Shown one piece after another: positions 4,982 through 55,265 of a stretch of 55,265 nt of DNA. The translations under genes were made by a program, and so were the position numbers. The stretch's first letter is position 1; the number at the start of each line of letters is the position of its first letter. The DNA comes from a virus: the IMG/VR virus record IMGVR_UViG_3300042523_000511, positions 1 to 55,265 of that record, one strand, 5' to 3'. The notes under the pieces are model-generated. The model was not told where the DNA came from. It made no database searches and saw nothing but the letters and a program-made list of their open reading frames with translations.

Positions 4982-5041
4982 GTGTTTTTTGGGGTTGGTC
5001 CTTGCTGTATAATTATCCTCTATCAATAAATTTGTTAAATT

Positions 5042-8644: not shown

Positions 8645-9588
8645 TGTGGTGTAATGTTAAAATTATTAACAATGGTTTGATACTGGTCTTGCTCGTTCTT
8701 GACTTTTCGTTTGAAGTCAGTTAACGTCATTGTGTGAATAGGAATGTAATCAAACTTTGCCATAGTTTCTTGAACTCTTGGATCAGCAACAGCGTCTTTG
8801 AGATCACGTTCTAATTGAATTTTGATTGCTGTGGGAGTGTTAGTAGACACATAAAAACTGCACCAAGAGATGAGTGTTGTAATGTTTTTACCAGTCAATT
8901 CTTTAAGTGTCGGAACTTCGGGATATCGTGAATCTCTTTGCGCAGTTGCAATGCCAATCAATTTTGTTTTCCCGGCCAACACCATATTTTTTGTAGTTCC
9001 TGTGCTGCCAAACGCATATGGGACTTGACGGGTTGACACATCAGCTTGCCACTGGCCAAACTCTTTGTAAGGTATGTGTGTCATAGATTTATTTCCAAGA
9101 CTAGCACCAAACTCTGCGCCAAGCAAGTGTCCAATGGAACCAATGTTCCAAGAACTGTATGTTGGATTTTTGGATATCTCTTGCTTGAGATCATCGTAAT
9201 TGCGTATTTGACTAGATGCAAACAATGCCATGTTTGCATCTAACACTGGTGCAATTGGCTCTAGACGGCCAATTGGTTCATGATTTTTATAAAGCACTGG
9301 ATAGGAAACTACAGTACCGCCATCTAAAAATCCTATAGTGTATCCATCAGATGGCTCACTGTTGATGGCATTCAGCCCAATTACGCCAGCACCTCCCGGG
9401 CGGTTTTCAACTAACACTGGCTGTTTCCATTTTTCGGTTAGTACTTCAGAAATTTTTCTAGCCATAACATCAGGACCTGAACCAACCCCAATTGATAAAA
9501 TAATTTTAACTGGTTTGCTTGGAAAATTTTGTGCTATTGTATTCATAGATACAAATGCTACCAGCAAACTTGCTATAATTTTTTTCAT
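8641..9588 (-). CDS. Tripartite tricarboxylate transporter substrate-binding protein (TctC/Bug family)
   Basis: The 315 residues are the normal full length of this family. The N-terminus is a Sec signal peptide (MKK, hydrophobic core, cleavage near NTIAQ). Residues 23-70 give the family hallmark FPSKPVKIILSIGVGSGPD, then VLVENRPGGAGVIG. Later come the characteristic SDGYTIGFLDGG, HIPYKEFGQW and a YPEVPTLKEL segment. Bug proteins sit in the periplasm and bind small carboxylates such as citrate, aromatic acids or nicotinate, delivering them to a membrane permease or a sensor. No TctA/TctB permease genes are visible here. The start has AAGGA six bases upstream. It is coupled to an adenylating enzyme that could use a carboxylate. 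The gene points to acquisition from a betaproteobacterial host. Confidence 0.93.
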   Translation of the reverse strand: MKKIIASLLVAFVSMNTIAQNFPSKPVKIILSIGVGSGPDVMARKISEVLTEKWKQPVLVENRPGGAGVIGLNAINSEPSDGYTIGFLDGGTVVSYPVLYKNHEPIGRLEPIAPVLDANMALFASSQIRNYDDLKQEISKNPTYSSWNIGSIGHLLGAEFGASLGNKSMTHIPYKEFGQWQADVSTRQVPYAFGSTGTTKNMVLAGKTKLIGIATAQRDSRYPEVPTLKELTGKNITTLISWCSFYVSTNTPTAIKIQLERDLKDAVADPRVQETMAKFDYIPIHTMTLTDFKRKVKNEQDQYQTIVNNFNITPQ

Positions 9589-36700: not shown

Positions 36701-39700
36701 TTGGAGGAATTGTAGCAGGCACAGTTTACTATGTCAACAGTATTGTTGATTCCACACATTTTACAGTTGCTCTGTCTCCAGATGGATTAACAGTTAGTTT
36801 GACCACTGCTACTGGTACTATGGTTGCAGATGTGCCAGAACCCTTAGATGCTACCTATGCCAGCAGTTTCACTGATCAATATCTTGGCCTGCGCCCAACA
36901 GATATCAATGTTGACGGCGGCGAGTTTATTGGTTCTTACGAAGGACATGCTCCAGAAGAGTTGGTTAACGGATCTGAGTATGACACACTAGATTTCCGTG
37001 TGTATACTCGTCCAGGTGCAGACTGGCTTAATCGCGGACATGGATTTTCAATTGGATCTTACAATTATGTCTATCAAGATTCTGCATTGAGATGGGATGA
37101 CCTGGTGCAAAATCCTGTAAACATAGAAGTATCCAATGTTACTACAGATAGTGATCTCTCACCAGATGTAGACTATGTTGTGGACTGGGAAAATCAAACT
37201 ATCTCAGCTATCACAGGTGGTGGCATTGCTACAGGTGATGTGATCAATATTGCTGCTTACGAAATGGGTGGCGGCAATCAATTGTTCCGTGGCAACTATA
37301 GCGGGTCAAATGTTAATGATTCTGTTGTGATTCCTGTAAAGGCAGACGAAATTTACGAACTGGTATTGTTTGTAAATGGCGAAAATGTGTCAGGGGCTAC
37401 TTGGACTCCATACGCTAATAGCACACCATGGACTTACGAAAATTCGTATGCAGCACAAACTGTTGTTGAAGACAATAACTTGTACTACCGAGCGTTACAA
37501 GTAGTTCCGCCAGGAATTTTGATAGATGATCCACTGTACTGGGTAGCATTTGTTCCAGCAACAAAATCTATAGTAACATTTCCATACCCAATAGCCAGTG
37601 TAAAATATGCAACCACAGAAGCTTTGCCTGCTCCGTATGGCTATGTGTACAACAATGGAGTAAACGGAGTTGGCGCAACCTTAACAAACGCCAACATTTA
37701 CGATTACTATTCTGTATTGACTATTGACGGTGTTACTCCATCAGTAGGAGATCGTATACTTGTTAAAAATGAAGTTGGCGCATATACCAATGATACTACT
37801 CAGAGTGCAACATTTAATGGAATATACACTGTTACTAGAGTTGGCAATAGTTTTGTTTCTTGGATATTGACTAGAGCAACAGATTTTGTAAACCCTCAGG
37901 ACATTCCTAGTGCAGTCACTTTGGTTACATCAGGATCAACCAATGCCGATACAAGATGGGTGTGTGCATCAAATCCATCTATTTCTGTTGGAACTACAGA
38001 GATCAATTGGATTCCTTTTATAGGTAGTGCATCGCCATATGGTGCAGGAGATGGTATTTCTATTACTGCAATGGGCATTGAAGATCCGCAATACAGTTGG
38101 AGCACAGCAACCACACAATATCGCACAGTTACACTGTCTGACACGTTGACCAACAGCATCAATCTTGAAAATAGCATGCAAGGTACCAATGTAGCCAATC
38201 TTGTGGTCACGTTGAATGGCAAACGTTTGCAACCGCCCGAAGGTATTGAATGGACTGGCGATGGCACCAGTAGCAGTTTTGGACTGCCACAACGCGGCGG
38301 CGGCTATCCACAATCTGAAATTAATGCATACACTGACATTCAAGTATGGTTAGATAATGTATTACAGGTGCAAAACTATGGTTCAGTTGTTGGAGACTAT
38401 TACGTGACCAACTACGATGGTAGCAATACTCCAGGTCGCCAGGTCATATTTTTTACACCACCTGCAGATGGGGCACAAATTTTAATATCAGTCAGCACCA
38501 TTGCACAATATTCAGTGGCCACCGGAACAACAAACAGATTGTTAATTACGCCATTGATGAATCAAGGTGATCATCTTGCTATTACCAGTTGGAATGATAC
38601 ATCACAACAAGACATATTGACTTTGGTGTTTGTTGGCCCAGTCACTACAGGACTAACACTGGTTGAACCATACGATAGCACTGGATATAGTTTTCCTGAT
38701 GCATCCCCTGTGAATGATACTCCAGGAAGTTATGATTTCAGCCTTGGTGTAGCCATTCCAGACAACGACTTTAATCTTGGCCGAGAAGGGTTACTTGCTG
38801 ATAGACTGTGGGTCACACTTGATGGCAACAGACTGTATGCTGGTGTAGATTATGCTGTTCAAGGACAATATTTAATCTTAGGCTCAGGAGTTATTGGATC
38901 TGCACAGGTATTGGCAGTAACAGAATTTACTCAAAGTATTGTGCCAGATGCCATGGCATTTAGATTGTTCCAAGACATGCGTGGAGTTCAAACTACATTC
39001 CGCATTACGGCTTCAACAACTACCACTGTGACGCAAACAGTTTCTGCCACTGCTGACACAATCTACGTCACTGATGCTGCGGCACTTAGCGAACCCAATT
39101 TGAGTGCTGGTATTTTTGGTGTGGCCACAATTAATGGTGAACGTATCTTGTATCGTGAACGAAATCTTGCTGCAAATTCAATCAGTGGATTACAACGTGG
39201 TACTGCTGGTACTGCCGCAGCCACACACGCTGTGGGTGCTGAAGTGTATGACATGGGCATTGGTAATAGACAACCACAAGAAGATCAAAACTACATTGTG
39301 AGTGATACCAGTACAGGTGACGGGTCTACCACAATATTCTATGCGCCAACTATTGAATTTGATTTAGGCGACAGCTCTTTTGAGATTGATAGTATTGAAG
39401 TGTACGTTGGTGGTAATCGTGCTAGAAATGGCTACTATGCTGGACAGTTTGTGATTGGGCAAACGTATACAATTGCCAGCATTGGAAACACCAACTGGTA
39501 TGCTATTGGGTTACCAAGCGATGTTTTCCCAGCGCCCGGTGTAGTGTTTACAGCCACAGGTGCCGGCACAGGCACAGGTGTAGCAGGCAATAGTTTGGCA
39601 AGTAATTATTACAAAGAAAGTGACTATGATCCACTAGCGATACAGTTCCTTACAGCCAGTGATTTGCCAGCGCCGGGTGCAGGTGTTGATGTGGTTATTT

Positions 39701-43476: not shown

Positions 43477-43782
43477 ATGAACACTGACGATTTAATTTCG
43501 CACAGCCGTGCTCGCTTTGATCACGTGGCTGCCAAACGCATACTCCGAGAGAAGTACGAAGCCCGAATGATATTTGCACATGCAGGAGGTATGTGGCGTG
43601 CCGGACCTGAACTCATAATTATCCTGGCCACTGTGCCTCCAGGTGATGCAGTGCTATTGGATTTGTATGAAACTCCTGTACAAGTACGGTCAGAAGAACT
43701 GCGCGGCTTGGCCATAACTCGCTGGCAAGAGCAAATGAATGCTTGGTTGATAGAACACAACGAACTCAGCACCAAACGATGA
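43477..43782 (+). CDS. Conserved hypothetical T4-like phage protein
   Basis: ATG 43477 is used; a TTG eight codons earlier lies inside the terminator region. The protein has 101 residues. It starts with a helix (DDLISHSRARFDHVAAKRIL), then MIFAHAGGMWRAGPELIIIL, a short strand, LLDLYETPVQVRSEEL, and a final helix RWQEQMNAWLIEH. The fold appears helical with a central hydrophobic hairpin. It recalls small unknown proteins next to tail genes in cyanophage-like genomes. Function is not known. It is the first gene of an unbroken chain of 14 genes and overlaps the next by ATGA, so it may belong functionally either to the virion or to the sugar cluster. Confidence 0.5.
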   Translation: MNTDDLISHSRARFDHVAAKRILREKYEARMIFAHAGGMWRAGPELIIILATVPPGDAVLLDLYETPVQVRSEELRGLAITRWQEQMNAWLIEHNELSTKR

Positions 43783-44624
43783 CTACCGGCGCACTAATCT
43801 TTGCTTTTGATACCAAACACACACGCTATCTTGACATGGCAGCCTTCTGTGCTGAACGTGTTAAACAGTTTCTCGACATTCCGGTAGCAGTGGTCACAAA
43901 CAATCCTGCTGCCAGCGATGAATCTGTGTTTAATCAAGTGATATATGCTGATCCACTAGGTGAAAACTCACGCTGGTTTGGTGATATACAAGATCATGTA
44001 CCTTGGCACAACAGCAATCGAGTAGATGCATACAATTTGTCGCCCTGGGATCAAACTCTAGTGTTAGACGCTGACTTTGTGGTCAATAGTGAAGATTTAA
44101 AAGCGGTTCTCGACAGCTCACAAGAGTTTATGTGCTTTCGATCGGCATTCAATCTTGCTAGACCAGAGGAAGAATTTTTGAACACTTTTGGCACATACCG
44201 GTTTCCCATGTACTGGGCCACTGTGATGATGTTTCGCCGATCAAATACAGCACAGTACATATTTGATGCCATGCAGATGATTCGTGAGAACTGGACACAC
44301 TACAGAGATCTCTATCACATTGCACAGCCCACATACAGAAATGACTATGCACTCAGTATAGCACTGGGTATTGTGAGTGGGCAAACACTAAAAGTAGATG
44401 CAATACCTTGGGGCATGCCCAGTGTGGTACCCGAAAACAAACTAACGTTTGATAATGAAACGTTCTGGAATATTGAGTATCAAGATGCACAAGGCAAATG
44501 TAAAACAGTCTCAATTGTTGGACTGGACTTTCATGCCATGGGCAAAAGAGATTTAGGAGTAATAGTTGAAACCCATAGAAGAACAAGGCTATGTGATACT
44601 AGCCTTGAACACGCCCCAAGTTGA
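43779..44624 (+). CDS. GT-A-like glycosyltransferase (DAD motif), GT8-like
   Basis: ATG 43779 overlaps the previous stop. This 281-residue protein starts with a Rossmann-like strand (GALIFAFDTKHTRYLDMAAF), a helix, then PVAVVTNNP. The metal-binding DxD-type motif is TLVLDADFVV near residue 95. Later, a strand-helix pair FPMYWATVMMFRRSNTAQYI and a final HAMGKRD with His resemble the acceptor part of GT8-type enzymes. Such enzymes move a sugar from a nucleotide sugar in a metal-dependent way in the cytoplasm. Donor and acceptor cannot be inferred. Its 3' end overlaps the next gene by 59 bases, an unusually long overlap. Confidence 0.55.
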   Translation: MTTGALIFAFDTKHTRYLDMAAFCAERVKQFLDIPVAVVTNNPAASDESVFNQVIYADPLGENSRWFGDIQDHVPWHNSNRVDAYNLSPWDQTLVLDADFVVNSEDLKAVLDSSQEFMCFRSAFNLARPEEEFLNTFGTYRFPMYWATVMMFRRSNTAQYIFDAMQMIRENWTHYRDLYHIAQPTYRNDYALSIALGIVSGQTLKVDAIPWGMPSVVPENKLTFDNETFWNIEYQDAQGKCKTVSIVGLDFHAMGKRDLGVIVETHRRTRLCDTSLEHAPS

Positions 44625-45342
44625 CTACTTGGATTGTGCTAGAACACTGACAAAAACAATTAAACAGTGGAATCCTCACGCCAGTGTTTGTTTGATCACG
44701 GACAAGACTCATGCCAACGACCCACTGTACAATCACTATCGTGTGATTGACAATGTTGACCGCGATAACTTGTATGCAAACGACTGGCAAGTGTTTTTTA
44801 ATTCGCCATATCGTGAAACCATCAAGCTAGAAGCAGACATGATGATTGCCAGTTCAATTGATCACTGGTGGACTATGTTTAGACACAGAAACGTTGTGAT
44901 TAGCACAGGCTGTAGAAACTGGCGCGATGAAGTTAGTACAGCAAGACACTATCGCAAGGTGTTTGATGCTAACCACTTATCAGATGTGTACAACGCTATT
45001 ACCTATTGGCGGCTGAGTGAAACAGCACGTGACTTTTTTGTGTTAGTGCGTGACATATTTGCCAACTGGACAGAGTTTAAAAAGTTGATTAAATTTCCCG
45101 AAGATGTGCCCAGCACTGATCTTGTGTATGCAATGGCAGCAGACATAATTGGTAGAGAACTAGTGACCATGCCATTTGCAACATACCCACGGATTGTGCA
45201 TATGAAACAAGCACATGCTGGTACAAAGACACAGCAATGGACCAACGAACTGGTGTGGGAAATGGATCCCATGCGTATACAGACTCAAGCACAATGGGGT
45301 GCGTTCCACTATCATGCAAAGGACTGGCGTCATGACACCTGA
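44566..45342 (+). CDS. GT-A-like glycosyltransferase-family protein (EAD motif), TTG start
   Basis: The start is TTG with AGGAG six bases upstream, which fixes the start inside the previous gene. This 258-residue protein has the same plan as its neighbour: GYVILALNTPQVDYLDCART, HASVCLITDK, and a metal motif TIKLEADMMI at about residue 90. It then has AITYWRLSETARDFFVLVRD and TDLVYAMAADIIGRE. The shared order VxxALxT/AFDT...YLDxA...L..D/EADxx suggests that the two genes are paralogues from an old duplication. A glycosyltransferase role is inferred from the motif. It overlaps the next gene by 11 bases. Confidence 0.5.
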   Translation: MKPIEEQGYVILALNTPQVDYLDCARTLTKTIKQWNPHASVCLITDKTHANDPLYNHYRVIDNVDRDNLYANDWQVFFNSPYRETIKLEADMMIASSIDHWWTMFRHRNVVISTGCRNWRDEVSTARHYRKVFDANHLSDVYNAITYWRLSETARDFFVLVRDIFANWTEFKKLIKFPEDVPSTDLVYAMAADIIGRELVTMPFATYPRIVHMKQAHAGTKTQQWTNELVWEMDPMRIQTQAQWGAFHYHAKDWRHDT

Positions 45343-45667
45343 AGAGTTTTGGAATATTTTACATTCTGCGCCCGAGCCGTTACCAGTATTCTATCGCTTG
45401 TATTACAATGATGCAGGCGAACCTGTTTGTTACAGCATGGAACACCTGCTAGGTAATTACATTGACATTGACGCTGAAACATTTGGCCTAGCACCTGCCA
45501 ACGTGCGTGTGGTAGACCGCAAGCTCAAATACATTACTGTACGCACATCAGACAAACTTGTGCCCGGCAACACAGGTACACCATGCCACCCGCAAAATGT
45601 TGCGGTCGTAGTCACTCAACACGGAACACATTGGAGCAAACAAACACATGGCCTTGAATCAAATTGA
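45332..45667 (+). CDS. Hypothetical small protein in the sugar cluster
   Basis: From ATG 45332 (after an upstream GGACTGG) the protein has 111 residues; longer forms upstream would lie inside the previous gene. It starts with a helix (TPEEFWNILHSAP), then strands VFYRLYYNDAG and VCYSMEHLLGNYIDID, and ends in a basic, Gly-rich tail with two Cys and several His (PCHPQNVAVVVTQHGTH). I do not recognise it. Similar short proteins with a YxLYYD-type strand occur in T4-like phages. It overlaps the genes on both sides by 11 and 20 bases. It has no Cys pattern or leader that would mark a peptide substrate for the radical SAM enzymes. Confidence 0.5.
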   Translation: MTPEEFWNILHSAPEPLPVFYRLYYNDAGEPVCYSMEHLLGNYIDIDAETFGLAPANVRVVDRKLKYITVRTSDKLVPGNTGTPCHPQNVAVVVTQHGTHWSKQTHGLESN

Positions 45668-46580
45668 CATAGCAGACCTAGACTGCATATACTTGACGTA
45701 TGATGAACCACAACGAGAAGAATTTTGGATCAAGATTAGGAATATGGTGCCTTGGGCACGAAGGGTGGACGGTGTTCTGGGGAGCGATGCGGCTCACAAA
45801 GCGGCAGCCCAAGCGAGTGGTACGGATAGATTCATTCTCATCGATGGCGACAATCTCCCCGATCCGGCGTTCTTTAATCAAACACTTGTTTTTCCTAGCA
45901 AAGAATATGAGAGTGCTGTGTTCCGGTGGCGGGCACGTAACCATATCAATGGACTGATGTATGGCAATGGTGGCCTGAGTTCATGGACCAAGGAACATGT
46001 GCAGAACATGCGTACACACGAAGCCACAGACGGCACAGCAGAAACACAAGTGGAATTTTGTTTTGATCCCTTATACTGGCCCATGTATGACTGCTATTCA
46101 ACCACATACCCTAATCAATCCCCATTCCATGCGTGGCGTGCAGGCTTTCGTGAAGGCGTTAAAATGTGCTTGGATCGTGGACGCAAGCCTACTACAGCAG
46201 AGTTCCAGGACCGAGTGCATCAACGCAACTTGGATCATCTAACCATTTGGCACAATGTGGGTGCTGATGTGGAACACGGCTATTGGGCCATGGCTGGCGC
46301 ACGCCAAGGCACGTATATGACCATGCTTACTGCCTGGGATCATACTCTAGTGCAGAACTTTGAAGCCTTGGCTGAACTGTGGCGAACAGTTGAAACTTCG
46401 GAGCCTAGACTGCTTGCTGGACGACTGGCAGAAGAATTACACACACAATTGGGCTTGCCCATGATTGTGATGGAAGCAGAACAAAGTGAATTCTTCAAGA
46501 AGCACTACAGATCTAATTGGCACAATTGTGGCATTATGACACGTGAAATTGATGTTATTAGGCAGCAAGAAGGTTGGTAA
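45648..46580 (+). CDS. GT-A-like glycosyltransferase-family protein (DGD motif)
   Basis: This 310-residue protein shows a GT-A-type arrangement: strand CIYLTYDEPQREEFW, helix with VPWARRVDGV, then DRFILIDGDNLPDPAFF with the acidic DGD at about residue 67. Next come FRWRARNHINGLMYGNGG, a Cys/Trp/Tyr-rich middle (FCFDPLYWPMYDCYST), and helices to the end. The order 'strand, sugar-nucleotide pocket, DGD, R-W-R-A-R-N' resembles enzymes that build glycans on phage or host surfaces. The DxD is the only strong mark, so the class is uncertain. GGAG precedes the start. The stop overlaps the next ATG by one base. Confidence 0.5.
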   Translation: MALNQIDIADLDCIYLTYDEPQREEFWIKIRNMVPWARRVDGVLGSDAAHKAAAQASGTDRFILIDGDNLPDPAFFNQTLVFPSKEYESAVFRWRARNHINGLMYGNGGLSSWTKEHVQNMRTHEATDGTAETQVEFCFDPLYWPMYDCYSTTYPNQSPFHAWRAGFREGVKMCLDRGRKPTTAEFQDRVHQRNLDHLTIWHNVGADVEHGYWAMAGARQGTYMTMLTAWDHTLVQNFEALAELWRTVETSEPRLLAGRLAEELHTQLGLPMIVMEAEQSEFFKKHYRSNWHNCGIMTREIDVIRQQEGW

Positions 46581-47149
46581 TGGAAAAGAAACTGTTGTTA
46601 GATGGATGCAGTTTTACATATGGCCTTGGCTTGAAAAAAGAAGAAACCTTAGAACAGCACTTCATTGAAAATGGTTATCAAGTGTTGAATTTATCTCGAC
46701 CGGGCAAAAGCAATCATGCCATTGCGTTAGATGTTTATAATCACATTGATGAAGTTGATGTTGTTGTAGTGGGCTGGACATACAGCTCACGCTGGCATTT
46801 AAAATATCACGGCGACAACATTGATTTGTTAGCCACACGACTGCAAATAGAATTACCTTACACCATTGATAGTGGTGCAATTGAGCAAAGCTATCAAGAC
46901 CTGCATCGATCGTTGTATAGTTTGTTTGATTCAACACATTGGGATCAGACCAGCGACATGCTAGTAGATACCACACATGCATTGGCACAGCAAAAATCAA
47001 CTGTTTTTTTCAGTTGGGAGCCAAGAGATACACAATGTTCTTTATATTATCCCCATATACCAGTATCGCTTCGTTTGCCTTGCGGGCATCTCAATGCTGA
47101 TGGAACCACATACTTGTTTGACAACTTAACTGCAAAATTAACCCAATGA
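46580..47149 (+). CDS. SGNH hydrolase-like protein
   Basis: ATG 46580 (TAATG) is preferred over an in-frame TTG at 46574. This 189-residue protein starts MEKKLLLDGCSFTYGLGL, the SGNH block I with Ser11 in GCS. Then comes LNLSRPGKSNHAIALDVYNH with Gly and Asn in the places expected for the oxyanion hole, VVVVGWTYSSRW, and near the end CGHLNADGTTYLF with the catalytic His (Asp or Asn upstream). This fits a small esterase or acetyltransferase-type enzyme; acetylation or deacetylation of a sugar is a reasonable guess. It is unrelated in length to the 336-residue SGNH protein at 3529, but similar in size to the one at 54317. Confidence 0.65.
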   Translation: MEKKLLLDGCSFTYGLGLKKEETLEQHFIENGYQVLNLSRPGKSNHAIALDVYNHIDEVDVVVVGWTYSSRWHLKYHGDNIDLLATRLQIELPYTIDSGAIEQSYQDLHRSLYSLFDSTHWDQTSDMLVDTTHALAQQKSTVFFSWEPRDTQCSLYYPHIPVSLRLPCGHLNADGTTYLFDNLTAKLTQ

Positions 47150-48528
47150 CCAAAGGCGATCAAAGCAAATTTATGAGCTCTGCAGAGCAGATGAAACAGG
47201 ATCTAGGACCTGCACTATGCCTTGCCAAATGGAAACAGGTCAGTTTGCACTTGCCCACAGGACTCAATAACTCCTGTTACCATCCGCCACTGCACAAGAT
47301 ACCTGTAGAAAATCTTGCCACAGACCCAGGATCCTTGCACAACACGCCGCACAAGAAAGCGCAACGTGTACTGATGTTACGGAACGAAAAGCCCTCTGAG
47401 TGTCAGTATTGTTGGAATATGGAAGCGGAAAACAAACTGAGTGACAGACACTATCGTTCAGGCGAGCCGTGGGCGGCTGTGGACTTTGAACGCATAAAGA
47501 ATTCAACAGGAGAAGAAAATGACGTTATCCCTAGCTACGTTGAGGTTAATTTTAATAATGTGTGTAATCTCATGTGCAGTTATTGTAGTCCGCAATTCTC
47601 TAGCAGCTGGCAACAAGAAGTGGATCGATCAGGCGGCTACCCTACTGCTCGTGTTCACAATGATCCTGGGCATTTTGTTGGAGATCGCAGGGTACTTCCG
47701 GCTAGAGAGCATAACCCTTATGTAGATGCATTCTGGGCGTGGTGGCCCACACTGTATCCAGAACTCATACACTTCCGCATGACTGGCGGCGAGCCTTTAC
47801 TGGACAAGAATACCTACAGAGTGTTTGATCATGTATTAGCTAACCCCAGCCCCAAACTGCATTTAAATGTTACATCAAACTTTTCAGTAGATGAAAAGTC
47901 ATGGCAGAAGTATCTCGGCTATGTAAAACAACTGTGTGACGGCCGCATAGAACACTTCATGCAGTATGTGAGTCTAGACGGCTGGGGCTCTCAAGCAGAA
48001 TACATGCGTCACGGCATGGACTTTGATTTGTTATGGGATAGAGTAAATCAATTCCTAACTGAAGTGCCTAGTTACAATAGCTTAACATTTATTGTTACTA
48101 TGAACAACTTGAGTGTGACCAGCTTGGAAAACTTGTTTGCTGGCATCTTGGGCCTGCGTAACACATACTCTAAGACCTATCAGCGTGTGTGGTTTGATAC
48201 ACCTGTGTTACGCGAACCTGCTTGGCAGAGCTTGCAGATTCTGCCCGAAGCCTATGCTGATCGGCTGGACCACTTGTGGGCTTGGATGATACGCCAAAGC
48301 GAAACACCCGACGATCCATTTCACGGATTTAAAGACTACGAAATAGCACGTTTAGATAGAGACATTGCGTGGATGCGAGCAGGCCAAAGTCAAGATCATT
48401 CCCAAGCAAAGGCAGACTTTTATAGATTCTTTCAAGAACACGACCGCCGCAGAGGCACTGACTTTCTAAAGACCTTTCCTGAAATGAAATCTTGGTGGGC
48501 AGAATGTGAATATTGGAGTCACCGTTAA
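47146..48528 (+). CDS. Radical SAM protein with N-terminal cysteine cluster (type A)
   Basis: The radical SAM cluster motif CNLMCSYC is at residues 140-147, and the SAM-binding TGGEP at 213-217. Both are canonical. Before the core come C25, C44 in CYHPP, and C86/C89 in CQYCW, which likely bind a second iron-sulfur cluster in a twitch- or SPASM-like unit. That unit lies N-terminal to the core, whereas classical SPASM units are C-terminal. The C-terminal half has YVSLDGWGSQAEYMRHG, a partial-barrel strand. Known twitch/SPASM enzymes oxidise alcohols in sugars (BtrN) or modify peptides and proteins. The setting between an SGNH protein and a glycosyltransferase suggests a sugar substrate. 460 residues; ATGA and TAATG junctions. 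Confidence 0.85.
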   Translation: MTKGDQSKFMSSAEQMKQDLGPALCLAKWKQVSLHLPTGLNNSCYHPPLHKIPVENLATDPGSLHNTPHKKAQRVLMLRNEKPSECQYCWNMEAENKLSDRHYRSGEPWAAVDFERIKNSTGEENDVIPSYVEVNFNNVCNLMCSYCSPQFSSSWQQEVDRSGGYPTARVHNDPGHFVGDRRVLPAREHNPYVDAFWAWWPTLYPELIHFRMTGGEPLLDKNTYRVFDHVLANPSPKLHLNVTSNFSVDEKSWQKYLGYVKQLCDGRIEHFMQYVSLDGWGSQAEYMRHGMDFDLLWDRVNQFLTEVPSYNSLTFIVTMNNLSVTSLENLFAGILGLRNTYSKTYQRVWFDTPVLREPAWQSLQILPEAYADRLDHLWAWMIRQSETPDDPFHGFKDYEIARLDRDIAWMRAGQSQDHSQAKADFYRFFQEHDRRRGTDFLKTFPEMKSWWAECEYWSHR

Positions 48529-49571
48529 TGTTTTATCTTGACGCTTGCACTGAGCTCACTGAGTTCTTGCACCCTTATGCTGATGAACTGTATTATGAAT
48601 TTGAAAAACTTCCAGTGGTGCCCGGAGCCACTTATTTGATAGGCCGCGAGCAACTGCGGCTCAATGGGCATCGCGTGAGAAGCATGTGCGAGCAATGCCA
48701 AATTATATTTGCCAATCCTGCAGAAGGTTCAGAAACTTTGTTATGGCATTTAAGAAAATATGGCATTGAAGATCTAGTGCTGGATGGCCGAGTTCAACTG
48801 ATAGGTGGTGGCCGCATGCCTCCCGAATACAATTGCATGCTGTTTGAACATTTTCTAACTCAACCGTTTAGATATGAAGAAAATAAAGAAGCCTGTAAAC
48901 GCACACCTGAAATCTTTTCTAAAACTGCTAAACCCTATTCTTTTTTGTGCCTAAATGGTCGCGGTCGCCCACATAGATGTGCTATACTAAACCAGCTGGA
49001 GCAATTGGGCCTACTTGATGGTGCTCTTTGGACCAACCTTGATGATTATCTAAGGCCAATTCGACTGTTACCTTCCTATTATGAAGTTGATAGATATCAC
49101 GGCACTACTGTAGAAACAGGTTATGTAAAAGCACAATTATTCAATAACGAATGGGGAGAAATTTACATTAAACCTGAACCATATATTGACACTTATTTTT
49201 CAGTAGTTACAGAAACTGTTTATAACTATCCTTGGAGTTTGTTTTCAGAAAAAATGTGCAAACCACTTGCTATTGGACACCCGTTTATTGCAGTGGCCAA
49301 TTACGGATTCTATCGTGATCTTCGTGACCTTGGATTTCAAACGTTTCACAGTTTGATTGATGAAACATTTGATCAGTTAGATAACAACCAGGATCGTATG
49401 GATCGTGTGATAAACTCTATTAAAGACTTGTGCAGTCAAGATCTTGGGGCTTTTATCCAGGCCGCAGAACCCATTTGTAAATACAATCAACAGCATCTTC
49501 AAGAGTTTGCTCAACAGCACATGGACGAGTTGCCTGCAAGATTCTTTCAATTTATCAACTCATCCACATGA
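48528..49571 (+). CDS. Glycosyltransferase-like protein with SEKxxKPL motif
   Basis: ATG 48528 sits on the previous stop (TAATG). This 347-residue protein has an N-terminal domain without clear motifs, then FLCLNGRGRPHRCAILNQLE at about residue 140. A conserved C-terminal block reads PWSLFSEKMCKPLAIGHPFI, with AVANYGFYRDLRDLGFQTF and a DETFD segment. That block is typical of fucosyltransferase-like (GT10) and related GT-B glycosyltransferases of large phages and viruses, where SEK and KPL contact the nucleotide sugar. The gene at 53346 has the same block (VSEKIFKPLAFYHPFV), so the two are paralogues in one cluster. The sugar is unknown. It overlaps the next gene by ATGA. Confidence 0.6.
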   Translation: MFYLDACTELTEFLHPYADELYYEFEKLPVVPGATYLIGREQLRLNGHRVRSMCEQCQIIFANPAEGSETLLWHLRKYGIEDLVLDGRVQLIGGGRMPPEYNCMLFEHFLTQPFRYEENKEACKRTPEIFSKTAKPYSFLCLNGRGRPHRCAILNQLEQLGLLDGALWTNLDDYLRPIRLLPSYYEVDRYHGTTVETGYVKAQLFNNEWGEIYIKPEPYIDTYFSVVTETVYNYPWSLFSEKMCKPLAIGHPFIAVANYGFYRDLRDLGFQTFHSLIDETFDQLDNNQDRMDRVINSIKDLCSQDLGAFIQAAEPICKYNQQHLQEFAQQHMDELPARFFQFINSST

Positions 49572-50899
49572 ACGATTTAGATTTTAAACACACAGTACTA
49601 GACAATCTCTCAGCCAGTTTTTGTGCAGCAAAATGGTATAACGCAACCATCTGGTTAGGAAGTGGACAGACCACAAGCTGTCATCACCCGCCAGCCCATT
49701 TGATCGACAGTGATAAAGTCAGCATCAACCCTCGGCTATTGCACAATACTGATCAAAAGAAAGAAGATCGTCGCAAGATGATCAACGGGGAGCGTCCCCC
49801 TGGCTGCGAGTATTGTTGGAAAATTGAAGACATGGGCCGCGATGCCATTTCAGACCGTGTGTATAAATCACGGATATATCCTATAGAGGCATTAGATGAA
49901 GCTAGAAATACACCATATACCAAAGACGTCAACCTCCGTACACTTGAGATCGCTTTTGATCGTACTTGTCAGTTTGCTTGTAGTTATTGCAATCCCGCTT
50001 TTAGCAGTACTTGGGTACGCGATATCAAACGGAATGGACCATATACCCAATTGGTATCCGATGGTAGGAACCATTTTACTCACGCCCATGATAGCGCACA
50101 ATTATATGAGTATGGAGAAAGCAATCCATACATTGATGCATTTTTTAAGTGGTGGGAATCGGATCTACATCGAACCCTGCAAGAGCTCAGAATCACCGGT
50201 GGTGAGCCCCTCATGTCAGGACATACTTGGAAGCTCATTGACTGGTTTAAAACAAATTCGGGTAAGAGTTCAACACGCCTGGCTATCAATAGCAACTTAG
50301 GCACAGACGTCGACATTGACCGCTTGCTGTCCAGCACAAAAGGCATGGCAATTGACATATACACTTCAAACGAAGCTGTAGGCACTCAAGCAGAATACAT
50401 ACGCGATGGCTTGGTCTGGGCGGACTGGATGCACAATGTAGAACGCTTGTTAAGTTCCAAGCAGTTCCGCGGCATACATGTGATGTGTACCATTAATGCA
50501 CTGTGCTTGGATAGCCTAGATCAATTGCTAGACCGCATAGTGAAATGGAAGCTGGAGTATGGACGTGATGCTATATCATTTACATTAAACATATTGCGCT
50601 TTCCATCATTTCAATCGCCATTGGTGCTGCCTGATAATATACGCACTCGCTATAGAGATCGATTGGCTAACTTCATGGTGCGACACAAAGGTTATTCTTA
50701 CTTGCACGAACACGAAATCAATCATCTACAAAGATTAATTGATTATTTAGACGTAGTGAAAACTCCGCACTCAGACGCATTTGATCGGCCCAAGCTGTTG
50801 AATGATTTTAAACAGTTCTTCTCACAGTACGACCAGCGCCGTGACAAAGTCTTTGTCACAGCATTTCCCGAATTAAAAGAATGGTACGATGAGCTATAA
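49568..50899 (+). CDS. Radical SAM protein with N-terminal cysteine cluster (type A)
   Basis: This 443-residue protein has the same plan as the one at 47146: CHHPP with C38, CEYCW with C80/C83, radical SAM CQFACSYC at 134-141 and TGGEP at 210-214. All inter-cysteine distances equal those of the first protein, so the two are paralogues. The spacing conserved at 54 residues between CxYCW and the cluster motif argues for a fixed auxiliary cluster domain. The core continues with NSNLGTDVDIDRLL and ends near LNILRFPSFQSPLVLPD. A substrate cannot be read. Coupled to the glycosyltransferase before it and to a type B radical SAM protein after it (11-base overlap). Confidence 0.85.
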   Translation: MNDLDFKHTVLDNLSASFCAAKWYNATIWLGSGQTTSCHHPPAHLIDSDKVSINPRLLHNTDQKKEDRRKMINGERPPGCEYCWKIEDMGRDAISDRVYKSRIYPIEALDEARNTPYTKDVNLRTLEIAFDRTCQFACSYCNPAFSSTWVRDIKRNGPYTQLVSDGRNHFTHAHDSAQLYEYGESNPYIDAFFKWWESDLHRTLQELRITGGEPLMSGHTWKLIDWFKTNSGKSSTRLAINSNLGTDVDIDRLLSSTKGMAIDIYTSNEAVGTQAEYIRDGLVWADWMHNVERLLSSKQFRGIHVMCTINALCLDSLDQLLDRIVKWKLEYGRDAISFTLNILRFPSFQSPLVLPDNIRTRYRDRLANFMVRHKGYSYLHEHEINHLQRLIDYLDVVKTPHSDAFDRPKLLNDFKQFFSQYDQRRDKVFVTAFPELKEWYDEL

Positions 50900-52148
50900 T
50901 TACAACTCAACTGATCTAGTAAGACCCACAGAATTAACAGAACGTGAAGAATTCTTATTAAAAGAGTCTAAGACATTTTGCATTTATCCGTGGATACACT
51001 TGCATGCTTATCCCACAGGCGAAGCATATCCCTGCTGTCACGCTGAAATGAAGCCCGGAGTGGTGGGTAATTGCCGCACAAATACCTTAGAAGAAATATG
51101 GACAGGCAAGCCCATGCAGCGACTACGTGCAGATATGTTGAACGAAACCCCACATGCTGCTTGCACACGCTGTTATGAGCAAGAAGAATCAGGATTCTTT
51201 TCCGGACGTAAATCAGCTAACAAGCATCACGGGCATCACATAAAGAAGCTGGATCAAAATCCTTTTGAAATGACCTACTGGGACATTCGTTTCTCAAACC
51301 TATGCAACTTAAAATGCCGTAGCTGTGGGCATATCTTTAGTTCACAATGGTATCAAGATCAAGCCAAGTTGGCAGGCGGTGACTGGAAAGCTCACAACTC
51401 AGTGCTAAACTACGCAGGGCGCACAGAAACAGACATGTGGGAACAGCTAGAGCCTCATTTGGACTATGTAGAACAAATCTACTTTGCAGGCGGCGAACCC
51501 TTGTTGATGGAAGAACACTACCGTATTCTGGAAGAACTAGTAAAGCGCGAGCGCTTTGATGTCAGACTGATATACAACACAAACTTTACACATACTGATT
51601 TAAAGGGCCGTTCAGTATTTGAATATTGGAAACAGTTTGCGAGTGTAGCAGTGGGCGCCAGTTTAGATGATCAACATGATCGTGCGGCCTATATACGAAA
51701 AGGAACTGATTGGCATCAAGTTATAGCCAATCGCGCCAAAATGATTCACGTGTGTCCCAATGTAGACTTTTATATTTCGCCCACACTTAGTATTATGAAT
51801 GCAATGACATTGCCTGATTTTCATCAGCAATGGACAGAAGTGGGATTGATTCGAGCACAAGATCTAAATGTGAACATCTTGCAAGATCCTGCACACTATA
51901 GAATAGACATTGCTCCTGCGGCGTACAAACAACAGTTAACAGCAAAGTATCGCAAGCACATTGAATGGTTGCGCGATCAAGACCCCTTAGGTCGTGCCAC
52001 ACAAGGCTTTGAATCAGCCATTACATTTATGATGGCCACAGACAACACACACTTGATTGATACATTCTGGCGCAAAACACATGAGCTTGATGTGATAAGA
52101 AATGAAAACATATTGGACACAATCCCAGAATTACAGGCACTAAAATGA
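50889..52148 (+). CDS. Radical SAM protein with N-terminal SPASM-like cluster (type B)
   Basis: The radical SAM motif CNLKCRSC is at 139-146 and GGEP at 201-204 (AGGEPL). The N-terminal cysteines have a different pattern from the type A proteins: C31 in FCIYPWIHL, C49-C50 in PCCHAEM, and C92/C95 in CTRC. FCxxPW followed by Cys-Cys and CxxC is the pattern of SPASM domains, which normally follow the core, for instance in PqqE-type enzymes. Here it comes first. The segment GNCRTNTLEEIWTGKPMQ is also SPASM-like. Such domains ligate extra Fe4S4 clusters for electron transfer or substrate binding. 419 residues, overlapping the genes on both sides. Confidence 0.87.
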   Translation: MSYNYNSTDLVRPTELTEREEFLLKESKTFCIYPWIHLHAYPTGEAYPCCHAEMKPGVVGNCRTNTLEEIWTGKPMQRLRADMLNETPHAACTRCYEQEESGFFSGRKSANKHHGHHIKKLDQNPFEMTYWDIRFSNLCNLKCRSCGHIFSSQWYQDQAKLAGGDWKAHNSVLNYAGRTETDMWEQLEPHLDYVEQIYFAGGEPLLMEEHYRILEELVKRERFDVRLIYNTNFTHTDLKGRSVFEYWKQFASVAVGASLDDQHDRAAYIRKGTDWHQVIANRAKMIHVCPNVDFYISPTLSIMNAMTLPDFHQQWTEVGLIRAQDLNVNILQDPAHYRIDIAPAAYKQQLTAKYRKHIEWLRDQDPLGRATQGFESAITFMMATDNTHLIDTFWRKTHELDVIRNENILDTIPELQALK

Positions 52149-53365
52149 ATATACCACACGATCAATTTTGCGTATTGCCTTGGGTTTCGTTAGAAGCTTC
52201 TCCCATTGGCACAGTACGACCATGTTGTTTAGCAGATGATGAGTTATTGGATGATGAGGGCAACAAGTTCTCATTGCTAACAGCTGACTTTGCGAGCATA
52301 CAAAACTCACAAGCAATGATTCAACTGCGTGAAGAATTTTTAGCTGGAAAAAAACCACAAACATGCCGCAAGTGCTGGATGGAAGAACGAGCAGGACGCA
52401 CAAGCAAACGCATGCATACCTTGGACAGAATGAAGCACATGGGCATATCAGGTGAGTGGACTGCTGATGCCAAGCCCTTGATGTTCCTGGATTTGAAGCT
52501 GGGCAACATCTGCAACTTGAAATGTCGTATATGCGGATCATGGTCATCAAGTCAATTTGCCACAGAAGAGCTTGCTGACATGGGAGTGGAGCAGGATCGA
52601 AAGAAATCATTTCCCTATCAAATGCTACGTGCTGGCGCTTGGCCCAGAGAAAATCTATCATTTTGGCACGAAATAGATGCCTGTTTAAATGACATACGCT
52701 ACATTGAATTCACAGGTGGCGAGCCATTTATGATTGATCAACATTTTGACATGTTGCAGGGCATTGTGGATCGCGGAATTGCACATCAAGTTGAAATACA
52801 TTACAACACCAACGGCACACAATGGCCTGCACGTGGTCCGGACATTTGGCGACATTTTAAAACAGTAGAAGTGGCGTTCTCTATAGATGATTTGGGTGCC
52901 CGTTTTGAATATCAACGTACCAATGCAGACTGGGCAGTGGTGCTGGACACAATCACAAGTTTTCAATACCTTCGAGATCAGTTACCAAACTTGCGTTTAC
53001 AGTGCTGTTCAACCGTGAATGTGTTCAATGTGCGGTATATTGATCAACTGGCGCATTGGATAGCACTGCAACGTTTTGACTTTGTGTACTGGAATATCAT
53101 GCATGACGCCTGGTACTTTTCAATTGCCACGCTGCCAGATTCTGTCAAGGCTGCTATTACACAACATTTGCGCACAGCCGATGTGCCTGCGCGGTATCGT
53201 GTGGAATTTGATAGAATCACGGATTTTATGAATAACGGTGCATCAACAGATGGGTTCATGACCAACATGAAGATCCGTGATTTGGATCGCAAACGCCAGC
53301 AAAATCTACGCACAGTAGCACCAGAATTGGCTGACATTTTAAACTATGACTACGACCAAACTTAA
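52145..53365 (+). CDS. Radical SAM protein with N-terminal SPASM-like cluster (type B)
   Basis: This is the paralogue of the preceding protein: FCVLPW with C9, PCC with C27-C28, CRKC at 74-77, radical SAM CNLKCRIC at 123-130 and TGGEP at 190-194. The N-terminal part is shorter by about 20 residues, so the SPASM-like cysteines start almost at the first residue. The core continues with EIHYNTNGTQWPARGPDIWR and EVAFSIDDLGARFEYQR, matching barrel strands. It is the fourth radical SAM gene within 6.2 kb. Overlap with the next gene is 20 bases. As for the others, substrate and product are not known. Confidence 0.87.
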   Translation: MNIPHDQFCVLPWVSLEASPIGTVRPCCLADDELLDDEGNKFSLLTADFASIQNSQAMIQLREEFLAGKKPQTCRKCWMEERAGRTSKRMHTLDRMKHMGISGEWTADAKPLMFLDLKLGNICNLKCRICGSWSSSQFATEELADMGVEQDRKKSFPYQMLRAGAWPRENLSFWHEIDACLNDIRYIEFTGGEPFMIDQHFDMLQGIVDRGIAHQVEIHYNTNGTQWPARGPDIWRHFKTVEVAFSIDDLGARFEYQRTNADWAVVLDTITSFQYLRDQLPNLRLQCCSTVNVFNVRYIDQLAHWIALQRFDFVYWNIMHDAWYFSIATLPDSVKAAITQHLRTADVPARYRVEFDRITDFMNNGASTDGFMTNMKIRDLDRKRQQNLRTVAPELADILNYDYDQT

Positions 53366-54320
53366 ACTGTTGCATCACCCAGATGACTATGTGAATTTTG
53401 CACAAGGTGCTATTGCTCACCTGGTGCTGCCGCATTTTGATCTAGTGGAATACACGCCCGATACCAATTATAATAGTGCAGACACAGTGATCTTAACAAC
53501 TTTTTGGCGAGCCAAGACACCAGACACAGCGTGGTGGCGGTCTTTTCAACAGCAGGGATTTCGCATAGTAGTAGATCATTTGTACGACAGTGATGTAGAT
53601 ACTGTGAGCAGACGGATCAATCCACTCCAGCTGGAATTGCGCTGTGGCAATTGGTTGTGGTATAACAGTGCCTTGGCCAGTGAGCAATTTGGATACAATC
53701 AATATCAGCCGCAGCGTGATGTCAAATATTCATTTATCATGTTAATGAACAAAATACGCGAGCACAAAGATCGCGTGGCTGCTGAACTGGCGACGTTATT
53801 GCCGGCTGCCAGATGGAGTTATGTTGAACGCGGTCAACACATTGGTGATCCTGAAGAAAACAATCCCAGTGTAATTTGGCATCTGTACATGAATCCCAAC
53901 TGGTATGACACTGCTGCATTTTCAGTGGTGGTAGAAAGCTGGATGCGCACTGATCGATGGGTGCATGATTCCAACAATTACAGAACAGAAGTAAGCGAAA
54001 AGATTTTTAAACCCCTGGCATTTTATCATCCATTTGTGTGCTATGGCAGCGAAGGCACCTGCAGATATCTACAGCGCGAAGGGTTTGAAACATTCTCAAA
54101 TCTCTGGTCAGAAGAATATGACACAATATTAAATGACAATCAACGCTTCGAAGCAGTGACGCCAGTGGTGTTTGACGCAGTAAAGAATTACAGTTCAGGC
54201 CGGTATGATGCGCTAACTGAACAGAAACTCCGGCACAACAAACATCATTACTTCAACACAGCCTTAATTCATCAGCGTTTCCAAACAGAAATCATTGATG
54301 TGATACAGGAGTTTGTGTGA
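53346..54320 (+). CDS. Glycosyltransferase-like protein with SEKxxKPL motif
   Basis: This 324-residue protein starts inside the previous gene at an ATG. Its N-terminal half carries LVLPHFDLVEYTPDTNYNS and RIVVDHLYDSDVDT. The C-terminal block VSEKIFKPLAFYHPFVCYGS, followed by GTCRYLQREGFETFSNL and a SEEYD end, is shared with the gene at 48528. It resembles GT10-type fucosyltransferases or related GT-B transferases in large phages. Two copies in one cluster suggest two different linkages or acceptors. The last 70 residues are helical with KNYSSGRYDALTEQKLRHNK. The stop overlaps the next GTG start by GTGA. Confidence 0.6.
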   Translation: MTTTKLKLLHHPDDYVNFAQGAIAHLVLPHFDLVEYTPDTNYNSADTVILTTFWRAKTPDTAWWRSFQQQGFRIVVDHLYDSDVDTVSRRINPLQLELRCGNWLWYNSALASEQFGYNQYQPQRDVKYSFIMLMNKIREHKDRVAAELATLLPAARWSYVERGQHIGDPEENNPSVIWHLYMNPNWYDTAAFSVVVESWMRTDRWVHDSNNYRTEVSEKIFKPLAFYHPFVCYGSEGTCRYLQREGFETFSNLWSEEYDTILNDNQRFEAVTPVVFDAVKNYSSGRYDALTEQKLRHNKHHYFNTALIHQRFQTEIIDVIQEFV

Positions 54321-54916
54321 TAGCTGTGTGCGGTGACAGTTTTTGTGTGCCCGACCCAGACTACGGACCAATGTGGGTGGATCTGTTGGGTCAGCAGTGT
54401 GATCTACACAACTACAGTGAGCGCACCGCCACTAACCTGCTGATAGCACGCCAAGTGGATCAAGCTGTCAGAGACAACGCTGAGTTTATAATAGTGCATT
54501 TCACCAGCTGCACACGCGGAGAAAAGCCACATGCTGGCCGTTATGTGCCGTTCAGCTATCACACTGCCAGCGAAATTACCACGCCATTTGACTCAAATGC
54601 TTTGAGAATTCTAAAAGAATACTACACAGAGTTCTTTGATTTAGATCTTGCTATATATCAAAACGCCATCACAATAGAACACACCCTGAACCGATTGGTG
54701 CAGAGTGGCCGGCCATTTAGATTTGATCAGGGCGGGTTTGAACACTCAAGCTATGGCGGCACAGGGCAGTATTTTGCACAGTACACGCAATATCGCAGTC
54801 GATACAACTTGTGGGATCATGTGACCACACGCAAGTTCCGTCCGTACTATCACATAACAAATGATCAGACACATACACAAGTGGCTGAATACTATGCACA
54901 GGAAATAGCAAAATGA
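54317..54916 (+). CDS. SGNH hydrolase-like protein, GTG start
   Basis: GTG 54317 with CAGGAG five bases upstream is the start. This 199-residue protein has the SGNH block I CGDSFCVPDPDYG (Ser8) right at the N-terminus. A later segment FIIVHFTSCTRGEKPHAGRY stands in the oxyanion region, and the end RPYYHITNDQTHTQVAEYY has the Asp and His of the catalytic pair (DQTH). The Asn and Gly of blocks II and III are not obvious, so activity is uncertain. It is the third SGNH-like protein of the window and lies directly before a nucleotide-sugar epimerase, which fits a role on sugar acyl groups. Confidence 0.6.
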   Translation: MIAVCGDSFCVPDPDYGPMWVDLLGQQCDLHNYSERTATNLLIARQVDQAVRDNAEFIIVHFTSCTRGEKPHAGRYVPFSYHTASEITTPFDSNALRILKEYYTEFFDLDLAIYQNAITIEHTLNRLVQSGRPFRFDQGGFEHSSYGGTGQYFAQYTQYRSRYNLWDHVTTRKFRPYYHITNDQTHTQVAEYYAQEIAK

Positions 54917-55265
54917 AAAAGATACTGGTATGCGGTGCAGGCGGATTTATTGGCACACATCTTGTGCGCAGCCTGCGAGCACAGGGCCATTATGTAATTG
55001 GCGCTGATTTAAAGTTTCCGGAGTTCTCAATCACTGAGTGTAATGAATTCCATCAAGTGGATCTTCGCAATCAACGCAGTGTCACACGCTTGATCAAACG
55101 TGACATTGATGAAATATATCAGCTGGCAGCAGACATGGGCGGTGCAGGCTATATCTTTATTGGGGATAATGATGCGGACATCATGCACAATTCAGCTATA
55201 ATTAATTTGAATATTCTGCATGAAATGACTTTTAAGAAAATACCCAAAATCTTTTACTCAAGTTC
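54913..55265 (+). CDS. NAD-dependent epimerase, GDP-mannose 3,5-epimerase-like (cut by window edge)
   Basis: The first 117 residues are visible. KKILVCGAGGFIGTHLVRSL is the Rossmann NAD-binding GxxGxxG of extended short-chain dehydrogenases, ending with GADL. Then comes QVDLRNQRSVTRLIK, and at about residue 72 YQLAADMGGAGYIFIGDNDA with DIMHNSAIINLNIL. AADMGG followed by a GYI segment is the hallmark of GDP-mannose 3,5-epimerase, which makes GDP-L-galactose and GDP-L-gulose. The catalytic YxxxK and the Cys/Lys pair would lie beyond the edge. It would supply a rare sugar nucleotide to the glycosyltransferases before it. Other GDP- or UDP-sugar epimerases remain possible until the rest is seen. 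Confidence 0.8.
   Translation, partial: MKKILVCGAGGFIGTHLVRSLRAQGHYVIGADLKFPEFSITECNEFHQVDLRNQRSVTRLIKRDIDEIYQLAADMGGAGYIFIGDNDADIMHNSAIINLNILHEMTFKKIPKIFYSS

Follow-up and report, generated by a model that had tools for sequence, protein, structure and literature searches.

A phage-borne module of N-terminal twitch radical SAM genes in fixed order, with a possible part in glycan tailoring

The IMG/VR virus record IMGVR_UViG_3300042523_000511 (55,265 bases, analysed as a whole and referred to below as the window) holds, at positions 47146-53365, four genes for radical S-adenosylmethionine (SAM) proteins, which we label A1, A2, B1 and B2. Together they supply most of the conserved part of a module found in phages, in which A1, A2, B1, B2 and a fifth radical SAM gene (B3), followed by a gene labelled U385 and by a gene for a NodU-like carbamoyltransferase, stand in fixed order in many phages. 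Each enzyme is a new member of the known subfamily NF033640, and its architecture is not new; at the family level we find no difference from NF033640, although that model does not extend to a module of five members in set order. We read the module, with somewhat better than even confidence, as a phage-borne operon for the tailoring of a sugar or glycan.

Auxiliary and core cysteines of the four radical SAM proteins

The first-pass annotation of this DNA had recognized four complete CxxxCxxC radical SAM proteins in this stretch. The four open reading frames (ORFs) all score above the cut-off of NF033640 (NCBIfam N_Twi_rSAM, 'twitch domain-containing radical SAM protein'; whole-protein cut-off 170 bits, model length 398), and they cover the model from about position 1 to position 398 with scores far beyond chance (Table 1). 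That annotation had set against its own proposal the possibility that all four proteins belong to one characterized family with a known reaction; they do share one family, but the description of NF033640 names no reaction. The Pfam Radical_SAM model (PF04055, gathering score 29.5 bits) gives sub-threshold scores of 20.3, 19.6, 26.3 and 25.1 bits for A1, A2, B1 and B2; despite this, the motif, the NF033640 match and the fold place all four in the radical SAM superfamily. The Pfam SPASM model (PF13186, gathering score 21.5) matches the N-terminal part of B1 (residues 31-96) and of B2, and the Pfam search gave no PF13186 match in A1 or A2.

The core CxxxCxxC motif lies at C140/144/147 in A1, C134/138/141 in A2, C139/143/146 in B1 and C123/127/130 in B2, and an alignment of the four proteins gives the auxiliary cysteines as C25-C44-C86-C89, C19-C38-C80-C83, C31-C49-C92-C95 and C9-C27-C74-C77, respectively. 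With auxiliary cysteines at residues 9-95 and core cysteines at 123-147, the cluster motif is N-terminal to the barrel in all four proteins, as the first-pass annotation had said. None of them has the auxiliary domain C-terminal to the barrel that characterizes classical SPASM/twitch proteins, a C-terminal extension being the norm stated in the sections of PMC9012708 drawn on here. The spacings first reported for the type A proteins (44/86/89/140 in A1 and 38/80/83/134 in A2) are exact, and the list lacked the first auxiliary cysteine of each (C25 and C19). Because this cysteine aligns with the FC of the type B motif FCxxPW, we assign one putative auxiliary ligand set to all four proteins, in place of the two cluster types that had been proposed for two pairs. 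The second ligand of type B is ambiguous within a CC pair (C49/C50 in B1, C27/C28 in B2), of which two alignments pick different members, both cysteines being invariant.

The conservation of these cysteines, which had been suggested as a check, was examined in alignments of each window protein with the distinct proteins of related phage loci that reach at least 93% of its length (65 of 80 for A1, 53 of 68 for A2, 52 of 66 for B1 and 49 of 63 for B2; the window protein may duplicate its identical copy in locus L001). The four auxiliary and three core cysteines are invariant in every row (row counts in Table 1). Additional invariant cysteines occur in A1 (C264, C454), A2 (C313), B1 (C50, C289) and B2 (C28, C288); in radical epimerases extra cysteines act as hydrogen donors, and by analogy these could do the same.

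AlphaFold2 models were made for A1 and B1 and are confident, with a predicted local distance difference test (pLDDT) score of 93.8 and a predicted template modelling (pTM) score of 0.91 for A1, and 91.4 and 0.88 for B1. They align to radical SAM cores with Z up to 13.9 (A1) and 12.5 (B1), and the nearest solved cores, drawn from these comparisons and a Foldseek list, are tied within about one Z unit: BlsE, SuiB, SkfB, DesII, anSME and viperin. Likeness to the sugar enzymes BlsE (Z 13.9, root mean square deviation [rmsd] 2.9 and 216 aligned residues with A1; Z 12.5, rmsd 3.5 and 218 aligned with B1) and DesII (Z 12.3, rmsd 3.8 and 231 aligned with B1) is confined to the core, at 12-15% identity, and these scores tie with those of many other radical SAM enzymes, among them SuiB (Z 13.9, rmsd 4.3 and 213 aligned with A1) and anSME (Z 12.4, rmsd 3.7 and 220 aligned with B1). 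With A1 as a single query, a search for a solved protein of the same overall architecture gave no hit at an E of 1 or less; profile searches of solved structures matched the core for the most part (the best being 8vpo, with E 2.6e-13 for that region) and gave no whole-architecture match, and the fold comparisons list none either, although one may still exist. Among predicted viral structures are relatives that span nearly all of B1 (TM 0.93 by query length), together with a less similar protein of Vibrio phage KVP40.

The butirosin twitch radical SAM dehydrogenase BtrN offers a parallel to the predicted cluster content of the phage proteins, since, in the sections of PMC9012708 concerned, it combines one four-cysteine auxiliary cluster with a CxxxCxxC core. 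It differs in that its twitch follows the barrel, whereas the phage cysteines precede it, and in showing no significant whole-protein similarity. The C-terminal stretch of BtrN (residues 185-257) aligns weakly (E 0.013) to positions 5-79 of the type B alignment profile, as would be expected for a permuted domain, and the BtrN reaction type is a plausible analogy for the phage enzymes.

Gene order of the module and its partner genes

Stretches of viral contigs with relatives numbered 272 for A1 and 230 for B1, and loci were read for the best 80 of each scan, so that statements on order rest on the closest relatives. The A1-scan loci were reduced to 61 non-redundant ones (by A1 identity over 97%); the 80 B1-scan loci keep their redundancy and partly share contigs with the A1 scan, and the profiles used to label the genes were derived from the loci described here. 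In the non-redundant set, the order A1-A2-B1-B2 is found in 48/48 loci that hold all four genes, with a gene labelled EXO1 directly 3' of A1 in 45 of these 48; the conserved gene GTc lies upstream of A1 wherever it is present (59/59), B3 follows B2 in 39/39, and U385 directly follows B3 in all 27 visible cases. In the B1-scan set, B1 precedes B2 in 80/80 and U385 directly follows B3 in 67/67. The gene after U385 is visible in 56 loci of that set, the carbamoyltransferase gene being next in 42 and one gene further on in 12, and the locus ending in 2. Across both sets the carbamoyltransferase gene was seen in 67 of 160 phage loci, many of which are cut short.

The operon runs past the end of the window, and a near-identical contig shows what follows: the epimerase gene, B3 (the fifth NF033640 member, at 273.4 bits), U385, an SGNH gene and then 103 codons from the start of the carbamoyltransferase gene. 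Within the window, A1, A2, B1 and B2 are complete ORFs on the + strand, each overlapping one of the others or EXO1 by 4-16 bases, and the tight packing and phage location first reported for the cluster are borne out. Two slots, GTc-A1 and B2-B3, hold variable cargo, which here comprises EXO2, an SGNH-like protein and a GDP-mannose 3,5-epimerase. In one other locus, a gene of the GTc-A1 slot (L041:5687-6730) shows weak, sub-threshold similarity to the arginine deiminase type (PF02274).

The epimerase is best judged from its complete copy on a related contig, for which similarity to solved GDP-mannose 3,5-epimerases (8sg0, E 4e-94; 2c59, E 1.8e-93) clearly exceeds that to the next kind (7e-27), and we assign it to that enzyme by this similarity. 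The carbamoyltransferase orthologue in locus L050 is above cut-off for both PF02543 (128.4 bits) and PF16861 (165.1 bits, 1.4e-48); the 103 codons of the window phage's own copy give 20.6 bits for PF02543 (E 3.3e-4, cut-off 24), and the score against the NodU equivalog model NF041651 is 126 for a cut-off of 1000. Accessory sugar genes, confirmed on representatives, comprise a DegT aminotransferase (1.9e-16), a GDP-Man dehydratase (1e-49), a UDP-glucose dehydrogenase and a hexapeptide transferase. U385, a conserved protein and core part of the module, of about 350-385 residues (for example L050:14434-15588 and L219:84-1127), has no Pfam or PHROGs family and no match in phage records. Another SGNH-like protein of the window phage (L219:1222-1875) is above cut-off for PF19547 and below it for PF13472.

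Table 1. Genes of the radical SAM cluster and its surroundings in the window, with the evidence for each label
Feature	Positions	Strand	Evidence
A1, N-terminal twitch radical SAM (NF033640), 460 aa	47146..48528	+	313.5 bits; cysteines invariant in 66/66 rows; AlphaFold2 model
EXO1, conserved partner directly 3' of A1, no family match	48513..49571	+	Locus order; nothing matched in Pfam, PHROGs or PDB
A2, N-terminal twitch radical SAM (NF033640), 443 aa	49568..50899	+	301 bits; cysteines invariant in 54/54 rows
B1, N-terminal twitch/SPASM radical SAM, 419 aa	50889..52148	+	NF033640 391.4 bits; Pfam SPASM 47.9 bits; cysteines invariant in 53/53 rows; AlphaFold2 model
B2, N-terminal twitch/SPASM radical SAM, 406 aa	52145..53365	+	NF033640 319.9 bits; Pfam SPASM 24.8 bits; cysteines invariant in 50/50 rows
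EXO2, accessory gene in B2-B3 slot	53346..54320	+	EXO1 relative at 21% identity; no family match
SGNH2, small GDSL/SGNH-like protein	54317..54916	+	By eye; this copy without library match
GDP-mannose 3,5-epimerase, cut by window end	54913..55265	+	Pfam Epimerase on cut copy; complete copy is L085:10025-10984
SGNH1, SGNH-like, directly 5' of A1, 4-base overlap	46574..47149	+	By eye; nothing above curated cut-off
GTc, conserved protein upstream of A1, DGDN motif	45648..46580	+	Putative glycosyltransferase; order in loci
x45215, small conserved protein between GTb and GTc	45215..45667	+	Locus comparison
GTb, possible GT-A-type glycosyltransferase, EADMM motif	44566..45342	+	Weak NleB match, E 0.1 (GTa/GTb profile); no meaningful Pfam match
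GTa, possible GT-A-type glycosyltransferase, DADFV motif	43743..44624	+	Weak NleB match, E 0.1 (GTa/GTb profile); no Pfam match

The window is that of a T4-like virus of bacteria, with T4_baseplate, SbcC/gp46-like, baseplate hub and structural proteins as markers, and the cluster sits a short way downstream of the structural genes. The structural region contains a single ORF of 5026 codons (24730-39810, +), and a SegE-type GIY-YIG endonuclease gene (4553-5026, -; PF19835, 9.1e-33) lies beside the gp46-like gene. The stretch 7166-9588 (-), flanked by the gp46-like gene and a gene for a gp47-like metallophosphoesterase, encodes an AMP-binding enzyme of the acyl-adenylate kind (PF00501, 3.8e-10) and a periplasmic binding protein of TctC/Bug type (PF03401, 2.8e-37), whose N-terminus is signal-like. 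Downstream of GTc, clusters of AMP-binding and of TctC genes are present in a further 11 and 9 loci, respectively; one representative of each was confirmed, and the two lie in the GTc-A1 slot. Burkholderiales commonly have TctC proteins, and the TctC gene is a hint at a host of that order.

Relatives of the module in phage and cellular genomes

Among deposited phages, searches with B1, A1 and a marine B1 relative gave distant matches only, in Vibrio phages K566, K567 and CZ01 and in a marine single-virus record. Like the window phage, Vibrio phage K566 has N-terminal twitch radical SAM genes (6 matches, of which 2 exceed the cut-off); in its array they alternate with two GT8 genes, and there is also a sub-threshold GT4 match. 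It differs in order and in sequence (20-25% identity). Twelve large viral records (220-364 kb) have 8-15 N-terminal twitch matches apiece with E no higher than 0.001, some of them below the cut-off, and all 12 have a carbamoyltransferase match. A scan of genome contigs gave 51 loci; in 42 of these, one or more proteins extend over the N-terminal part, as judged by profile (91 proteins in all).

In a tree of 106 proteins, A1 and A2 with their relatives form one clade with a support of 100 in the Shimodaira-Hasegawa-like approximate likelihood ratio test (SH-aLRT), and B1, B2 and B3 stand apart, B1 lying among proteins of Bacteroidetes, Elusimicrobia and Bdellovibrionota. The tree was built by a quick method with SH-aLRT as its sole support and with long branches flagged; matches under 180 bits and locus L208 were left out, and proteins over 560 residues were trimmed to the radical SAM part. 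Of the two paralogous pairs first described, A1 and A2 are thus upheld as sisters, and a sister relation of B1 and B2 is rejected for this tree, which does not group them.

Relatives of all five groups occur together in IMG/VR phages, on contigs binned in marine metagenome-assembled genomes (MAGs) and on one Bacteriovoracaceae contig. The marine contigs (L165-L167) share the order GTa-GTb-GTc-A1-A2-B1-B3-B2, and one of them (L165) bears structural genes and is evidently of phage origin. The Bacteriovoracaceae contig has eight N-terminal twitch genes in 12 kb, seven of them labelled by profile with all five groups represented; the tree backs A1, A2 and B3 well and B1 weakly (85), and leaves B2 unplaced. 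These genes adjoin obg- and rsfS-like genes, with a carbamoyltransferase gene about 12 kb away, and from the gene names, assigned by eye, the genes of the contig look chromosomal. The contig (L169, G010 contig 41) belongs to a Bacteriovoracaceae MAG, and transfer between phage and predator is possible in either direction. In two Bacteroidetes loci (L176, L182) a radical SAM gene overlaps a carbamoyltransferase gene. In the elusimicrobial loci L178 and L181, tandem gene copies encode long proteins that combine an N-terminal twitch radical SAM domain with TPR-like repeats, the repeats being recognized by eye.

The association of phage radical SAM and glycosyltransferase genes has precedents. In the portions of PMC7029224 used here, the host-recognition cluster of pelagimyophages bears glycosyltransferase genes and includes radical SAM cassettes, freshwater Fonsibacter phages are without such genes, and O-chain modification is proposed for the pelagimyophage glycosyltransferases; in the portions used of PMC7150976, the principal auxiliary genes of Tasman Sea phages include those for radical SAM proteins and glycosyltransferases, and both papers, to that extent, list phage radical SAM genes as auxiliary with no reaction assigned. 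The pelagimyophages are like the window phage in being T4-like and in having a variable region with tail fibre, glycosyltransferase and radical SAM genes, but the same portions of that account contain no twitch architecture, five groups, fixed order or carbamoyltransferase. The first description of the cluster as new is thus qualified: its architecture belongs to an already curated subfamily, and its phage setting beside putative glycosyltransferase genes is partly anticipated in these portions of the two papers. We found no description of the fixed five-enzyme and carbamoyltransferase module with cargo slots in the open-licence PMC literature.

Proposed function and competing explanations

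We favour the tailoring of a sugar or glycan because of the GDP-mannose 3,5-epimerase, the carbamoyltransferase and the accessory sugar genes, from which we infer the substrate; sugar modification, one of two options in the first-pass annotation, was in this respect a sensible guess. The core [4Fe-4S] cluster would cleave SAM to a 5'-deoxyadenosyl radical, which would take a hydrogen from a sugar, and the auxiliary cluster may, by analogy, either accept an electron, as proposed for BtrN, or hold the substrate, as in MoaA (the sections of PMC9012708 used here describe the BtrN cluster as a likely electron acceptor and GTP as bound to the auxiliary cluster of MoaA). Each paralogue would make one regiospecific change (an oxidation, epimerization or dehydration), and the sugar would then be O-carbamoylated and transferred by the upstream glycosyltransferase-like proteins, perhaps also by EXO1, onto a host envelope glycan or onto the virion. 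A change to the host envelope glycan may in turn alter phage receptors or exclude rivals.

Several observations weigh against this interpretation. Of the genes in the window cluster, only the epimerase is provably a sugar enzyme, and it is accessory, being found in 7 of the 61 non-redundant loci. EXO1 and EXO2, first described as two coupled glycosyltransferase-like genes, matched no glycosyltransferase model, and neither did GTa, GTb or GTc in the library and solved-structure searches; their candidacy as known glycosyltransferases found no support from family and structure searches. EXO1 was not seen in L165-L167, nor in L050. The gene after U385 is visible in 13 loci of the non-redundant set and is that for the carbamoyltransferase in only 9; a carbamoyltransferase gene was found near the relatives in 8 of the 51 genome-contig loci, and Vibrio phage K566 gave no carbamoyltransferase match. 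Some cellular relatives have no sugar context: those of L191, L194 and L200 stand beside an adenosine-deaminase-like gene (by eye), and in a Fluviicola MAG (L189) a WelO5-type halogenase gene lies near them. Oxygenase genes adjoin other cellular relatives. Finally, since no solved structure found shares the whole architecture, the fold gives no indication of the substrate class.

Modification of a protein or peptide is in our view unlikely. The radical SAM enzymes would act on a virion or host protein (for example, on side chains of a tail fibre), and the glycosyltransferase-like proteins would glycosylate the same target, a reading that fits the many peptide and protein modifiers among the closest solved cores (SuiB, SkfB, anSME) and the place of the cluster shortly downstream of structural genes. 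SuiB, SkfB, anSME and PqqE differ, however, in having C-terminal auxiliary clusters and other operon partners, and the phage module has little room for a precursor gene. At the core junctions in the loci of the A1 scan (A1-EXO1, EXO1-A2, A2-B1, B1-B2, B2-B3 and B3-U385), a gap of at least 60 bases occurs in 0/318 cases if ATG, GTG and TTG starts are allowed and in 22/318 if ATG alone is used, which argues against a ribosomally synthesized and post-translationally modified peptide (RiPP), although it leaves room for a precursor encoded elsewhere or for a large protein target; the gap between U385 and the carbamoyltransferase gene is open (63-230 bases in 13/13). Protein or peptide modification also leaves the carbamoyltransferase and sugar-nucleotide genes unexplained, and it sits poorly with the same enzyme groups on a bacterial contig with chromosomal neighbours.

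Small-molecule or nucleotide chemistry, yielding either a diffusible natural product or a viperin-like antiviral or antibacterial nucleotide, is improbable. Aminoglycoside pathways do bring twitch radical SAM enzymes together with carbamoylation (BtrN, TobZ), and cellular relatives lie beside genes that would suit such products: PhyH oxygenase genes in L182 and L193, a carrier-protein-like gene (by eye) in a Bacillota cluster (L203), and the halogenase gene of L189. That gene (L189:13153-14076; carrier-independent WelO5 type, PF22814, 1.7e-66) adjoins three N-terminal twitch radical SAM genes, beside which several PhyH-like genes were also recognized by eye. Viperin structures and the prokaryotic viperin model are weak relatives of the phage proteins, the model scoring 15-26 bits against a cut-off of 180, and viperin is not known to have an auxiliary cluster. 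The sugar-nucleotide genes and the position near tail genes favour a surface product over a small molecule.

We give little credence to DNA base hypermodification, in which the enzymes and transferases would tailor hydroxymethyl bases of the phage genome. Phages do carry glycosyltransferase-rich DNA tailoring islands, but the lack of a thymidylate-synthase-family gene speaks against this chemistry: PF00303 (thymidylate synthase/dCMP hydroxymethylase) is found in 0 of 11 large records, which are linear and may be fragments, and in 9 of 14 controls. The TET/JBP family (PF12851) is absent from the same 11 records but also from the 14 controls, and so proves little. The cluster lies near tail genes, moreover, and bacterial contigs carry the same enzymes. 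Least probable of all is that there is no joint pathway and that unrelated auxiliary genes have gathered in a hypervariable host-recognition island, as the variable cargo of the two slots and the arrays of the large phage records, with some matches far from the module, might suggest, since the order is fixed (A1-A2-B1-B2 and B3-U385 without exception), the reading frames mostly overlap and relatives of the five groups recur jointly in phages, on marine MAG contigs and on the Bacteriovoracaceae contig.

We return, then, to a sugar or glycan as the target. A more specific form of this proposal, which we put forward tentatively and hold at rather less than even confidence, is that a five-step radical SAM pathway with a carbamoyltransferase, passed on as a unit, builds a not-yet-known carbamoylated glycan, with slots into which an epimerase, aminotransferase or dehydratase can be plugged. 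The occurrence of five members of the subfamily in fixed order with a carbamoyltransferase makes the reaction of the family testable. It also suggests that phages run multi-step radical chemistry, probably altering envelope or virion glycans, and such alteration bears on receptor change and superinfection exclusion.

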